DNA from: Gemmatimonadaceae bacterium
GTDB lineage: Bacteria > Gemmatimonadota > Gemmatimonadetes > Gemmatimonadales > Gemmatimonadaceae
NCBI GenBank assembly: GCA_036496605.1
Contig: DASXKV010000038.1
Span: 1-64,000 of the forward strand
Length of the DNA stretch: 64,000 nucleotides
Direction: 5' to 3'
The notes under the pieces were generated by a model that was not told where the DNA came from, did not search any database, and saw only the letters and a program-made list of their open reading frames with translations. This document shows, in pieces, positions 6,464 to 19,262 of this stretch. The number at the start of each line of letters is the position of its first letter. Within the stretch, counting starts at the first letter, position 1. A program made the translations under genes and the position numbers.

Positions 6464-7903
6464 TCACCGCTCGGCGTGGGTAGTCAGCTCCCGGTCGATC
6501 CAGTGCGCCGCGTCGCGTCCCTCACGGATTGCCCACACGACAAGTGACGCGCCGCGCCGCACGTCGCCGGCGGCGAACACACCGGGGACGTTCGTTCGGT
6601 GCGTCGCGTCCGTCGACACCAAACCGTCGTCTCCACACACGACGCCAAGCTCCCGAAGCAGGTCGCTGTCTCCGGCGCCAGTGAATCCGATTGCGAGCAG
6701 CACGAGATCCGCGCGTAGCGAAAATTCGGTGCCGGGGAGGGGCACTACTCGTGGCGCCCCATCCGCCATCGAGCGCGTTTCGACGCGAATGGCGTTGAGC
6801 CGCTGTACACGTCCATGCCTTCCGGCAAATCCCGTCGCCGAGACGCTCCACTCTCGTGAGCAGCCCTCTTCGTGTGCGTGGGACGTGCGGAGCTGCATCG
6901 GCCAGAGCGGCCACGGGGTCGATTCGTCGCGGCTCGTGGACGGCTGCGCGATGAGCACAAACTGCTGCACGCTCCGCGCGCCTTGCCGGATCGCCGTACC
7001 GGCACAGTCGGCACCGGTGTCTCCGCCCCCGATGATCACGACGCGCTTGCCGCGCGCGTCGATGAGCGTTTGTTCATCGATGGCGTCGTCGGCGAGACGG
7101 CGGTTCTGCTGCGTGAGGTACTCCATGGCGAGATGGATGCCGTGCAGCTCGCGGCCGCCAACGTCGAGCTCCCGGGCCGCCTGCGCGCCGAGCGCCAGAC
7201 AGATCGCATCGAAGTCGCGACGGAGCTCGCCGACCGCGACGTCTTCGCCGACGTTTACTCCGGTGCGAAAAACGATTCCTTCCGCCGTCAGCTGCGCGAG
7301 GCGGCGGTCGAGCACGGTTTTCTCGAGCTTGAAGTCGGGAACGCCATAGCGCAACAAGCCGCCGACACGATCAGCTTTCTCGAACACAACGACGGCGTGG
7401 CCGAGTCGGCGGAGCTGTTGCGCGGCGGCGAGACCGGTCGGGCCCGACCCGATCACGGCGACGCGACGCCCAGTCTCTTCCCGCGGCATTGCCGGCGTCA
7501 CCCAATCCTCGGCGAAGCCACGATCCGCGATTGCTTGCTCGATGGTGCGAATCGCCACTGGCTGCTCGATGAGTGTGAGCACGCAGGCTGACTCGCACGG
7601 CGCGGGACAGAGCCGCCCAGTGAATTCGGGGAAATTGTTCGTCGCGTGCAGGGCATCGAGGGCCTCGCGCCACTTGTCACGGTAGACCAGGTCATTCCAA
7701 TCAGGGATGACATTCCGAACGGGACAACCGGTGTCGCCCTGACAGAACGGCACGCCGCAATCCATGCATCGCGCGCCCTGGTCGCGGAGCTCACGCTCCG
7801 GCATCGGCGCATAGAACTCCCGCCAGTGCTGCACGCGCGTCTCCGCAGGCTCGCGCGTGGGCGTTGCGCGTCGGAGGCTGAGAAATCCCCGCAGATCACC
7901 CAT
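6464..7903 (-). CDS. gltD: Glutamate synthase small (beta) subunit
   Basis: The subunit takes electrons from NADPH through FAD and Fe-S clusters to the large subunit, which makes glutamate from 2-oxoglutarate and glutamine. The start is placed at the ATG at 7903 (MGDLRGF), overlapping the gltB stop by 8 nt and preceded by GAGG. This gives 479 residues, the normal size. Two N-terminal cysteine groups for 4Fe-4S clusters are visible ([16 protein letters not shown] and CPAPCESAC). They are followed by the FAD-binding [13 protein letters not shown] and the NADPH-binding [13 protein letters not shown] motifs. It is the last gene of the ilv-glt operon. Confidence 0.96.
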
Positions 7904-17479: not shown

Positions 17480-17497
17480 ACAAAACCTCCATGCGCG

Positions 17498-17560
17498 AAA
17501 AGGCCCCTTCAGTGCGAAGGGGCCTTCAGTCAAACGCCCCTCCCGATGCGGGAGGGGCGT
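17498..17560 (-). terminator. ilv attenuator: anti-antiterminator hairpin plus intrinsic terminator
   Basis: In the minus-strand transcript, ACGCCCCTCCC and GGGAGGGGCGT (17550-17560 and 17534-17544) form an 11-bp hairpin. AAGGCCCCTTC and GAAGGGGCCTT (17516-17526 and 17500-17510) then form an 11-bp terminator ending in TTTT, just before the ilvD ribosome-binding site. Alternative pairings exist. GGGAGG at 17584-17589, immediately after the leader stop codon, can pair with the CCTCCC of the first hairpin. This would free its GGGGC half to pair with GCCCC of the terminator. The five segments therefore allow two mutually exclusive folds. The mechanism is inferred from complementarity. Confidence 0.75.
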
Positions 17561-17594
17561 GTCGTTCTACCGTGTTGCCCGATCCTCCCAGCCG

Positions 17595-17660
17595 CTATGG
17601 TCCCGCGCTAATAAGCGCGAGTACCTGAAGCAGACCGAGTCGGAGCGAGCGAGGCGACAT
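17595..17660 (-). CDS. ilv operon leader peptide (attenuation)
   Basis: A 21-residue frame runs from the ATG at 17660 to TAG at 17595. It begins MSPRSLRLGLLQVLALIS and ends AGP. Eight of 21 residues are Leu, Val or Ile, clustered in the middle as in E. coli IlvL. The stop codon lies 5 nt before a GGGAGG segment that starts the competing hairpin series. A ribosome finishing at the stop would cover that segment and allow the terminator; a ribosome stalled at the Leu/Val/Ile codons would leave it free. No strong Shine-Dalgarno is visible. The assignment rests on composition, position and the downstream structures. Confidence 0.75.
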   Translation of the reverse strand: MSPRSLRLGLLQVLALISAGP

Positions 17661-17702
17661 GATTAGATGCTGAATTCGCGATCGGTGATGGTGTCGAAAC
17701 GC

Positions 17703-17730
17703 AACCTATGCCGATTCTGACATTTGTCAA
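17703..17730 (-). promoter_or_regulatory. Promoter of the ilv-glt operon
   Basis: On the minus strand, TTGACA (17725-17730) and TAGGTT (17703-17708) are separated by 16 nt. The -35 box lies only 8 nt from the -35 box of the divergent leu promoter. Transcription would start about 35-40 nt before the leader ATG at 17660. Confidence 0.65.
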
Positions 17731-17738
17731 CACGCGCC

Positions 17739-17768
17739 TTGACAGCCGCGGCGAGTGCGCTTTAGGTT
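17739..17768 (+). promoter_or_regulatory. Promoter of the leu operon
   Basis: TTGACA (17739-17744) and TAGGTT (17763-17768) are separated by 18 nt. The -10 hexamer is identical to that of the divergent ilv promoter. The predicted transcription start, about 7 nt downstream, falls at or next to the leader ATG at 17776, so the leader peptide is probably translated from a leaderless mRNA. Confidence 0.65.
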
Positions 17769-17775
17769 CGCGTTC

Positions 17776-17868
17776 ATGCATCGCGCCAACCTTCTCCTCC
17801 TTAGCAGCGCTCTCGGCCTTCTTGGTCGGGGGCTTCTGTGCATGGGAGGGAAGGAGCGCACCGAGTAG
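17776..17868 (+). CDS. leu operon leader peptide (attenuation)
   Basis: A 30-residue frame begins MHRANLLLLSSALGLLGRGL and ends in a charged KERTE before TAG at 17866-17868. Nine residues are Leu, including a run of four (17791-17802) and two Leu pairs. This is a leucine-sensing leader. Codons 23-25 (ATGGGAGGG, 17842-17850) exactly duplicate the first nine bases of the 3-prime arm of the downstream terminator and can pair with its 5-prime arm. Stalling at the Leu codons would therefore favour the antiterminator. No Shine-Dalgarno precedes the ATG, which coincides with the predicted transcription start. Confidence 0.8.
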   Translation: MHRANLLLLSSALGLLGRGLLCMGGKERTE

Positions 17869-17887
17869 CGGCGCGCTGACGCGATGA

Positions 17888-17930
17888 GCGGCCCCTCCCA
17901 TCCACGCGATGGGAGGGGCCGCTTCCGTTT
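17888..17930 (+). terminator. leu operon attenuator terminator
   Basis: GCGGCCCCTCCCAT (17888-17901) and ATGGGAGGGGCCGC (17909-17922) form a perfect 14-bp stem with a 7-nt loop, followed by TTCCGTTT. The 5-prime arm can instead pair over 9 bp with ATGGGAGGG at 17842-17850 inside the leader peptide gene, giving an antiterminator. It lies 96 nt before leuA. Confidence 0.8.
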
Positions 17931-18026
17931 GCGCCCTGCCATCGGTGGCCATCGAGGAGCCAATCGTTCACGAGCGCGCACGCGACGCGGACTTTCGCCA
18001 CCACTCTCACCGTCGCCTGTGCAACC

Positions 18027-19262
18027 ATGTCTCGACCAGCCTCCGGTAACGATTACGTGACAGTAGCACGTGACCCGACGCGCGTTCTCATCTTCGACAC
18101 GACGTTGCGAGACGGCGAACAAGCGCCGGGTTGCAGCATGTCGTTGGCGGAGAAGGTGGCCGTTGCCGAGCAGCTCGTTCGACTCGGCGTCGACATCATC
18201 GAGGCCGGATTCCCGGCTGCCTCACCAGGCGAGGAAGATGCCGTCGCCGCCGTCGCGGAGCGGATCGCGAGTGCAGAAACGTCGCCGATCGTCTGCGGCC
18301 TCGCGCGCGCGAAACCTGCCGACATCGAGACGTGCGCACGCGCCATCGGCGCGGCGCCGCGCCGCCGAATCCACACGTTCCTCGCGACGTCCGATTTGCA
18401 CCTCGCGCGCAAGCTGCACATGACTCGACGCGAGGTGCTTGACCAGGTTGGCGATGCGGTAGCGTACGCGCGATCCTTCGTCGACGACATCGAGTTCTCG
18501 CCCGAAGACGCGTCGCGCTCCGACCCCGAGTTCCTCGGCGAGGTGCTCGAGGTCGCGATCGCGGCCGGCGCGACGACGCTCAACATTCCCGACACCGTGG
18601 GCTACGCCACGCCTGACGAGTACCGTGACCTGATCCGCGATGTCTGCGCGCTCGCTGCCAGAGAGCCGGCCGTCGTCGTCTCGACGCACTGTCACGACGA
18701 CCTCGGGCTCGCCGTTGCGAATTCGCTCGCCGGCATACGCGCTGGAGCGCGACAGGTCGAGTGCACCGTCAACGGCATCGGCGAGCGGGCTGGCAACGCC
18801 GCGCTCGAGGAAGTGGTGATGGCGCTGCACACGCGCGCGGCATTTTACGAAACGCACACGGCCGTGGACACGCGGGAGATCGCGCGCGCCTCGCGGCTTG
18901 TTTCCGAATGCACGGGCGTCCACGTGCCCTTGAACAAAGCGATCGTCGGCGCCAACGCGTTTGCACACGAGGCGGGGATCCATCAGGACGGCGTGCTCAA
19001 GGATCGTCAGACATATGAGATCATGACGGCGCACTCTGTCGGCCAGGAGGGCAGCGCGCTCATCCTCGGCAAGCACTGCGGTCGCAGCGCTGTTCGCAAA
19101 CGGCTCGAGGAGCTTGGCGTGTCCGTCGACGAGGCTCGTTTCATTGGCATCTTCGAACGGCTCAAATCACTTGCCGATCGACAGAAGCGCATCACCGATC
19201 GCGATCTCATCGCCCTCGCGACGTCGTTCGCGACGATGGCCCAGCCGACGGAGGTCGCGTGA
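18027..19262 (+). CDS. leuA: 2-isopropylmalate synthase, short form without the regulatory domain
   Basis: The enzyme condenses acetyl-CoA with 2-oxoisovalerate, the committed step to leucine. Catalytic TIM-barrel signatures are complete: [12 protein letters not shown] near residue 25, [17 protein letters not shown] at about 53-69, [16 protein letters not shown] around 223, and the communication-domain motif [17 protein letters not shown]. The protein ends at 411 residues, where full-length enzymes (E. coli 523) continue into the LeuA dimer domain that binds leucine. It should therefore lack classical feedback inhibition. No separate regulatory-domain gene is seen nearby. No Shine-Dalgarno is obvious at the start. 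Confidence 0.92.

Follow-up and report, generated by a model that had tools for sequence, protein, structure and literature searches.

In Proteobacteria, the leu and ilv operons are controlled by the leader-peptide attenuators leuL and ilvL. The locus described here, in the 64,000-nt stretch of Gemmatimonadaceae DNA that was analyzed (the window), shares with them a leader ORF with many codons for the amino acid under control, a terminator/antiterminator switch and leu/ilv genes next to it. It differs from them in that the first segment of the switch is formed by the Leu codons themselves, the mRNA is probably leaderless, the phylum is another one, there is no match to an Rfam family, and there are orphan copies accompanied by a small-protein gene. 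Branched-chain amino acid (BCAA)-rich leader ORFs are described at ilvB and leuS in Actinobacteria, together with a LEU element that is a leuA pseudoknot (Seliverstov et al.; PMC1262725). Those leaders resemble ours in standing ahead of ilv/leu genes in a GC-rich group, whereas a terminator arm that tracks the leader sets our locus apart from the LEU element as described in the available part of that paper. In mycobacteria, leaderless short ORFs were put forward, speculatively, as candidate Cys attenuators, with no terminator switch described in the portion of the text available (Shell et al.; PMC4633059). These also place a regulatory short ORF at the mRNA 5′ end and show an RTGA-type overlap between a small ORF and the next gene, but the downstream small ORF here is a second, Leu-poor gene. 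The leader peptide of the Sinorhizobium rnTrpL/peTrpL system, according to the part of the source available, itself acts in trans (PMC7298713), which is alike in that an attenuator product is used outside the biosynthetic operon, whereas the output proposed here is a separate downstream small protein. The original prediction had called such control little described in Gemmatimonadota, and this holds within the open-access library searched (a part of the whole literature), where no paper joins Gemmatimonad* with leader peptides or attenuators. The present analysis extends leader-peptide attenuation, with substantial comparative evidence, to a phylum without a description in that library.

Positions 17776-17930 of the window very probably represent a ribosome-mediated transcription attenuator that senses charged leucyl-tRNA ahead of leuA-leuC-leuD-leuB, as judged from sequence and modeling. 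The mechanism follows the textbook, in a new lineage, and what was less expected is the survival of the attenuator next to a small leucine-poor protein and not only next to leuA. The leader ORF (17776..17868, forward strand; MHRANLLLLSSALGLLGRGLLCMGGKERTE followed by a stop) has 30 codons with a run of the end-product codon conserved in relatives, nine codons being Leu (codons 6-9, 13, 15, 16, 20, and 21), and its stop codon lies about 19 nt 5′ of a GC-rich stem, both as originally predicted. Homologous leaders are found in the two alignments described below (A1 and A2). Segment 1 (17790..17801, +) is the Leu codon run, which pairs with segment 2 in the ribosome-free RNA in both the MFE fold and the RNAalifold consensus. 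Segment 2 (17842..17854, +), the antiterminator strand within the leader ORF, consists of ATGGGAGGG (17842-17850) and the following AAGG. Segment 3 (17887..17902, +) is both the terminator 5′ arm and the antiterminator partner and carries CCCTCCCAT (17893-17901), and segment 4 (17908..17923, +) is the terminator 3′ arm, which contains a repeat of ATGGGAGGG and is followed by a weak U-tract. The terminator hairpin was found at the predicted place, although with a stem of 16 bp (17887-17902 with 17908-17923) and not the 14 bp claimed, and the dual complementarity of its 5′ arm, to its own 3′ arm and to ATGGGAGGG at 17842-17850, was confirmed.

In the proposed mechanism, transcription would begin on the leader ATG or beside it, and the 5′ end would be loaded with a ribosome. 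With ample leucine the ribosome would reach the stop codon, past segment 2, leaving segments 3 and 4 to pair and transcription to end ahead of leuA; with no ribosome, segments 1 and 2 would pair and the terminator would again be left to form. When leucine is short, the ribosome would stall in the CTT CTC CTC CTT run (segment 1), and the freed segment 2 would pair with segment 3 before segment 4 is made, allowing leuACDB to be transcribed. We infer the stalling and the termination, as well as the role of the small protein discussed below.

The case for an attenuator is carried by conservation of the sequence in relatives. Regions upstream of leuA were read at 26 loci, including duplicates of the same genomes, and several relatives had ilvC directly ahead of leuA with no leader there. 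Nine family leaders (alignment A1) displayed a mean column identity of 70%, and RNAalifold returned the 1:2 hairpin, a hairpin after the stop codon and the terminator. A covariance model (R1) built from these nine leaders was searched against 179 family genomes, with matches at E ≤ 0.01 in 24 of them. In 17 genomes, 18 loci (the strong loci) matched over the full length with more than 55 bits; eight of these loci had served to build the model and ten are independent. In the larger alignment of 19 family leaders (A2; group f1), three consecutive Leu codons were kept in 18. The terminator (3:4) was paired in 91.6% of cells, and 8 of its 16 pairs had changed on both sides, giving 23 such cells against 6.7 in shuffles, with 0 of 500 shuffles as good. 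The antiterminator (2:3) uses the terminator 5′ arm, which makes the two structures mutually exclusive, and was paired in 81.3% of cells compared to 50-61% when slid. Its covariation score of 0.132 was reached by 6 of 500 shuffles, and its count of three pairs with double changes by 41 of 500. The alternative pairing is kept as a GGGAGG:CCTCCC core with two compensatory exchanges, one in G181 (GGGAGA facing TCTCCC, preserving 2:3) and one in G061 (GGAAGG facing CCTTCC, preserving 2:3 although the terminator is thereby mismatched). Column 144 of segment 3 pairs with segment 2 in 19 of 19 leaders and with segment 4 in 12 of 19, which indicates that segment 2 constrains segment 3 independently of the terminator. 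No covariation was seen for segments 1:2 in the register counted, which is not optimal, a slide of +1 pairing better. The five leaders of a second family (f2) and their arms differ in sequence from f1 yet match each other (−24.7 kcal/mol for their own duplexes versus −14.9 and −15.7 kcal/mol when swapped); f1 duplexes overall (−17.1) were barely stronger than those obtained by swapping in f2 arms (−14.9). Shared descent could account for part of the conservation.

Upstream of the leader, promoter-like boxes TTGACA (17739-17744) and TAGGTT (17763-17768) span 17739..17768 on the forward strand. The distance from box to ATG is fixed in relatives: for 17 of 19 f1 leaders and all nine leaders of genus g22 (see below), TTG[AC][CG] begins 35-38 nt 5′ of the ATG, the exceptions being G046 (43 nt) and the second copy in the window’s own genome (none at the usual place). 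If the spacer is 17 nt and transcription starts 6-7 nt past the −10 box, the 5′ end falls at the leader ATG, and no Shine-Dalgarno (SD) sequence was seen ahead of that ATG in the upstream sequences listed. Because this spacing is constant, the mRNA from which the leader is translated is probably leaderless, transcription being predicted to start on the ATG or no more than 1-2 nt away from it. A start downstream of 17868 had been named beforehand as an outcome that would speak against the attenuator; the start predicted from the promoter-like box lies upstream of that point. A generic promoter and terminator scan of the window returned neither a consensus promoter (−10 box TAGGTT) nor a U-tract terminator (tail TTCCGTTT).

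Folds and energies, a check suggested with the original prediction, were calculated for positions 17776-17950 (175 nt), giving −111.4 kcal/mol compared to −78.3 ± 4.4 kcal/mol in 200 shuffles (z −7.5). The MFE structure of the RNA alone contained the 1:2 hairpin, formed by the Leu codons with segment 2, together with the terminator. The energy of the 2:3 duplex in the window was equalled by 26% of 300 shuffled leaders, and since neither the window nor most f1 leaders stood out significantly from shuffles, duplex energy was not used as main evidence. We also folded 34 leaders (19 f1, the window ilvD leader described below, five f2 and nine g22, the latter covering 9 of the 13 unit-bearing g22 genomes), taking each transcript to the 3′ end of segment 3. 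Each was modeled ribosome-free, with a ribosome in the first Leu/Ile/Val codon run and with a ribosome at the stop codon, using an assumed ribosome footprint. The values quoted count segment 3 pairing to anything upstream; a narrower test restricted to pairing with the leader ORF missed the ilvD leader and several g22 leaders and was set aside. For the window, the modeled probability that segment 3 is paired upstream was 0.00 when free, 0.89 when stalled in the Leu run, where the predicted state is antiterminated, and 0.01 at the stop codon, a predicted structure that depends on the position of the ribosome over the regulatory codons. Means for the free, stalled and stop states were 0.24, 0.86, and 0.11 in f1 (19 leaders), 0.28, 0.96, and 0.09 in g22 and 0.71, 0.89, and 0.46 in f2, with 0.07, 0.96, and 0.42 for the window ilvD leader. 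A stalled value above 0.6 with a stop value below 0.3 was obtained for 19/19 f1, 9/9 g22 and 2/5 f2 leaders. The strict switch (free <0.2, stalled >0.6) was displayed by 13/19 f1, 5/9 g22 and 0/5 f2 leaders and by 13 of 480 shuffled controls (8 leaders × 60 shuffles). Within f1, G046, G130, and G025 were predicted to be antiterminated even when ribosome-free, and G002, G125, and G136 partly so.

The weak U-tract in the window and the lack of a match in the terminator scan would fit an element that controls translation of leuA or the small ORF, or that uses Rho, instead of intrinsic termination. The same could be said of segments 2 and 3, which are SD-like and anti-SD-like (GGGAGG, CCTCCC), and of the leuA/ilvB leaders of Streptomyces, which in the available part of the source do not behave as classical attenuators (PMC1262725). 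We consider this improbable, as the 16-bp hairpin covaries strongly, lies well upstream of the small-ORF or leuA start and is followed by T-rich tails in several relatives (G130, G181, G061). Less credible still is a genuine small membrane or lipoprotein-like peptide (Leu-rich core, ..LLC/LSC..) with the hairpin as its ordinary terminator. Such a peptide would be hydrophobic and rich in Leu, as the leader is, and most f1 members have a Cys following the Leu core, but the leader dN/dS is about 0.2-1.0, segment 2 inside the ORF tracks the terminator arm, the element precedes biosynthetic genes or the small ORF, and the g22 and f2 leaders have BCAA codons in common and not a peptide. The textbook layout of ribosome-mediated attenuation ahead of leuA, as originally predicted, is supported by the conserved Leu run, the switch segment and the terminator; failure of relatives to keep the Leu codons or the alternative pairing had been the other outcome named beforehand as speaking against it.

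Known RNA families did not account for the element. Rfam (4227 models, gathering cut-off) gave no match in the window to a leader family or riboswitch, only sub-threshold matches at E ≤ 10 over 17480-18030, and one tRNA only at eight related loci; for T-box riboswitches there was no Rfam match upstream of leuA at gathering or permissive cut-offs.

The attenuator was not confined to leu operons. Nine of the 18 strong loci lie ahead of an intact or contig-cut leuA (G000, G002, G015, G018, G060, G062, G063, G130, G136), one (G064) ahead of leuA/leuB remnants, and eight have no leu gene (contig 30 of G000, G025, G061, G067, G123, G125, G181, G182). The own-genome second copy (L141, 9937-10089, minus strand; G000:C30:123436-123588) is followed by a small ORF ending in QADGSA and then by an ORF that resembles a PAS-type sensor by eye. 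Loci L142-L148 are orphan attenuators with a small ORF ending in QADGxP and no leu gene, and their neighbors look unrelated from one genome to the next. No other shared target gene was found, the genes downstream of orphan copies being unrelated to each other by eye. At L149 (G064; leader 7028-7180, minus strand) the attenuator and small ORF are followed by leuA and leuB fragments, a leu operon caught decaying. G046 (L031/L002), which is assigned to another family, carries an f1-type leu leader and small ORF, possibly from operon transfer. In the genus g22 (30 genomes), a leader of Leu/Ile/Val codons, a terminator and a homologous small ORF were found together in 13 genomes, one of the leaders being cut by a contig end. 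L210 and L211, which also came up in this search, were dropped because neither a suitable leader nor a suitable small ORF was there, and other weak rows of the search were left out.

A true ilvC (over the cut-off) was present in 31 of 179 family genomes. It was absent from all eight non-g22 genomes with only an orphan or decayed copy (G025, G061, G064, G067, G123, G125, G181, G182; completeness 64-99%, and draft genomes can miss genes) and from 10 of the 13 g22 genomes with the unit, and present in seven of the nine genomes with the unit ahead of leuA (missing in G063 and G130). As orphan-bearing genomes mostly lack ilvC, the switch seems, on sequence grounds, to have persisted beyond loss of the pathway, its output being the small protein. 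Orphan copies might instead have lost all function and be decaying remnants of former leu operons, as the gene fragments in G064, the missing TTGAC box of the own-genome copy and the restriction of strong f1-type leaders to 17 of 179 genomes would allow. We regard this as unlikely, because the eight orphan loci, including those of three divergent species of the same genus, preserve the leader frame with its Leu run as well as segment 2 and the terminator, the small ORF has a low dN/dS in ten pairs, nine of them from the orphan genus g22, and the unit is present in 13 of the 30 genomes of g22, ilvC being absent from 10 of the 13. A switch that persists after its pathway would offer a case of an amino-acid attenuator that keeps an uncharacterized small protein as its output.

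The small ORF has 37-68 aa, a variable body and a C-terminus of QADGxP/A, and lies past the terminator in 17 of the 18 strong loci. Its C-terminus varies to QADGSA in the own-genome copy and QADGAA in G136, and in G067 no stop follows the motif directly; QADGVP stands ahead of leuA in G046, and the g22 form reads MFMxFDR..DATGxPF..QADGAP. At most loci with leuA, the stop codon of the small ORF overlaps the start of leuA or lies directly beside it. The window’s own leuA locus is the only strong locus without it. In G002 a small ORF (MSRHLHRSRV..QADGEP) is kept between terminator and leuA, and the N-terminus of the window leuA resembles its start, so the window leuA appears to begin at the ATG of the lost small ORF, which suggests a deletion that fused the two. 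A strict DNA pattern for QADGxP and a stop matched 27 of 179 family genomes compared to 2 of 179 for the reversed pattern; among these 27 loci, L164, L166, L178, and L181 were spurious on reading, lacking a suitable leader or small ORF. A loose QADGx[P/A] pattern matched 42 of 395 phylum genomes, many outside the family, and because its reversed control also matched often the strict pattern was used for counts. Pfam and NCBIfam searches with four small ORFs and two leaders gave no match, with one chance match only (E 0.33).

The dN/dS of the small ORF was 0.04-0.38 in ten pairs, which share members and are hence not independent, and it looks like a real coding sequence under purifying selection. 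Its composition is poor in leucine. Thirty small ORFs, related to one another and excluding that of G046, contained 20 Leu in 1675 residues (1.2%), with 0.8% Ile, 2.3% Val and 4.8% Phe. The Leu/Phe ratio was 0.25 compared to 3.0 in 6168 control windows and 9.7 in 44 equally polar controls, and 80% had at most one Leu, a level seen in 3.5% of all controls and, among the most polar controls, in 41%, the control proteins being ORFs picked by codon-position GC and not annotated genes. The comparison with polar controls indicates that polarity explains part of the low leucine but not the depletion of Leu with respect to Phe. We gave up the idea of the small ORF as a mere device for leuA, since it is also kept where leuA is absent. 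On balance, and with some reserve, we favor the view that Gemmatimonadaceae carry a stand-alone BCAA starvation switch, made of a leaderless BCAA-codon leader and an attenuator, whose dedicated output would be a new small-protein family, depleted of leucine to allow its synthesis while leucyl-tRNA is scarce. One cargo of this switch would be the leu operon, and the unit would persist in BCAA auxotrophs after the pathway has gone. The near-absence of leucine leads to a testable prediction on expression under starvation, and the unit may be a response of auxotrophic soil bacteria to amino-acid supply.

The window’s genome has one leuA, whose closest named relatives are from Gemmatimonadetes/Gemmatimonadaceae MAGs, supporting the Gemmatimonadota-type genome suspected at the outset. 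This leuA (2-isopropylmalate synthase; 18027..19262, +) is the first gene of leuA-leuC-leuD-leuB, with ilvD-ilvB-ilvN-ilvC divergent (names from protein reading, ilvC also by an NCBIfam model). The original prediction had missed the probable leaderless start, the orphan copies and the small ORF, and also a similar BCAA leader, with its own terminator, in the divergent ilvD operon. This putative leader peptide ORF (17595..17660, minus strand; MSPRSLRLGLLQVLALISAGP and a stop) contains six Leu, one Ile and one Val, and lies with its terminator about 115 bp from the leu attenuator. Its terminator-like hairpin (17534..17560, −) has a CCTCCC arm that can pair with GGGAGG at 17584-17589, and is joined ahead of ilvD by a second, tandem hairpin, AAGGCCCCTTC..GAAGGGGCCTT (17500..17526, −), conserved in G002. 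This genome, of the same genus, has a leader MSRLSLRISLLLVLAILIAGP with a stop in the same place and the same hairpins. The ilvD leader of the window scored only 12.8 bits with R1. BCAA leaders ahead of ilvD were also found in G030, G009, and G006, three of the eight operon loci examined, that of G006 being assigned by hand from its position. Between the two attenuators of the window, at 17725-17744, the divergent promoter boxes TGTCAA and TTGACA stand back to back, 8 nt apart, with a far wider gap in G002.
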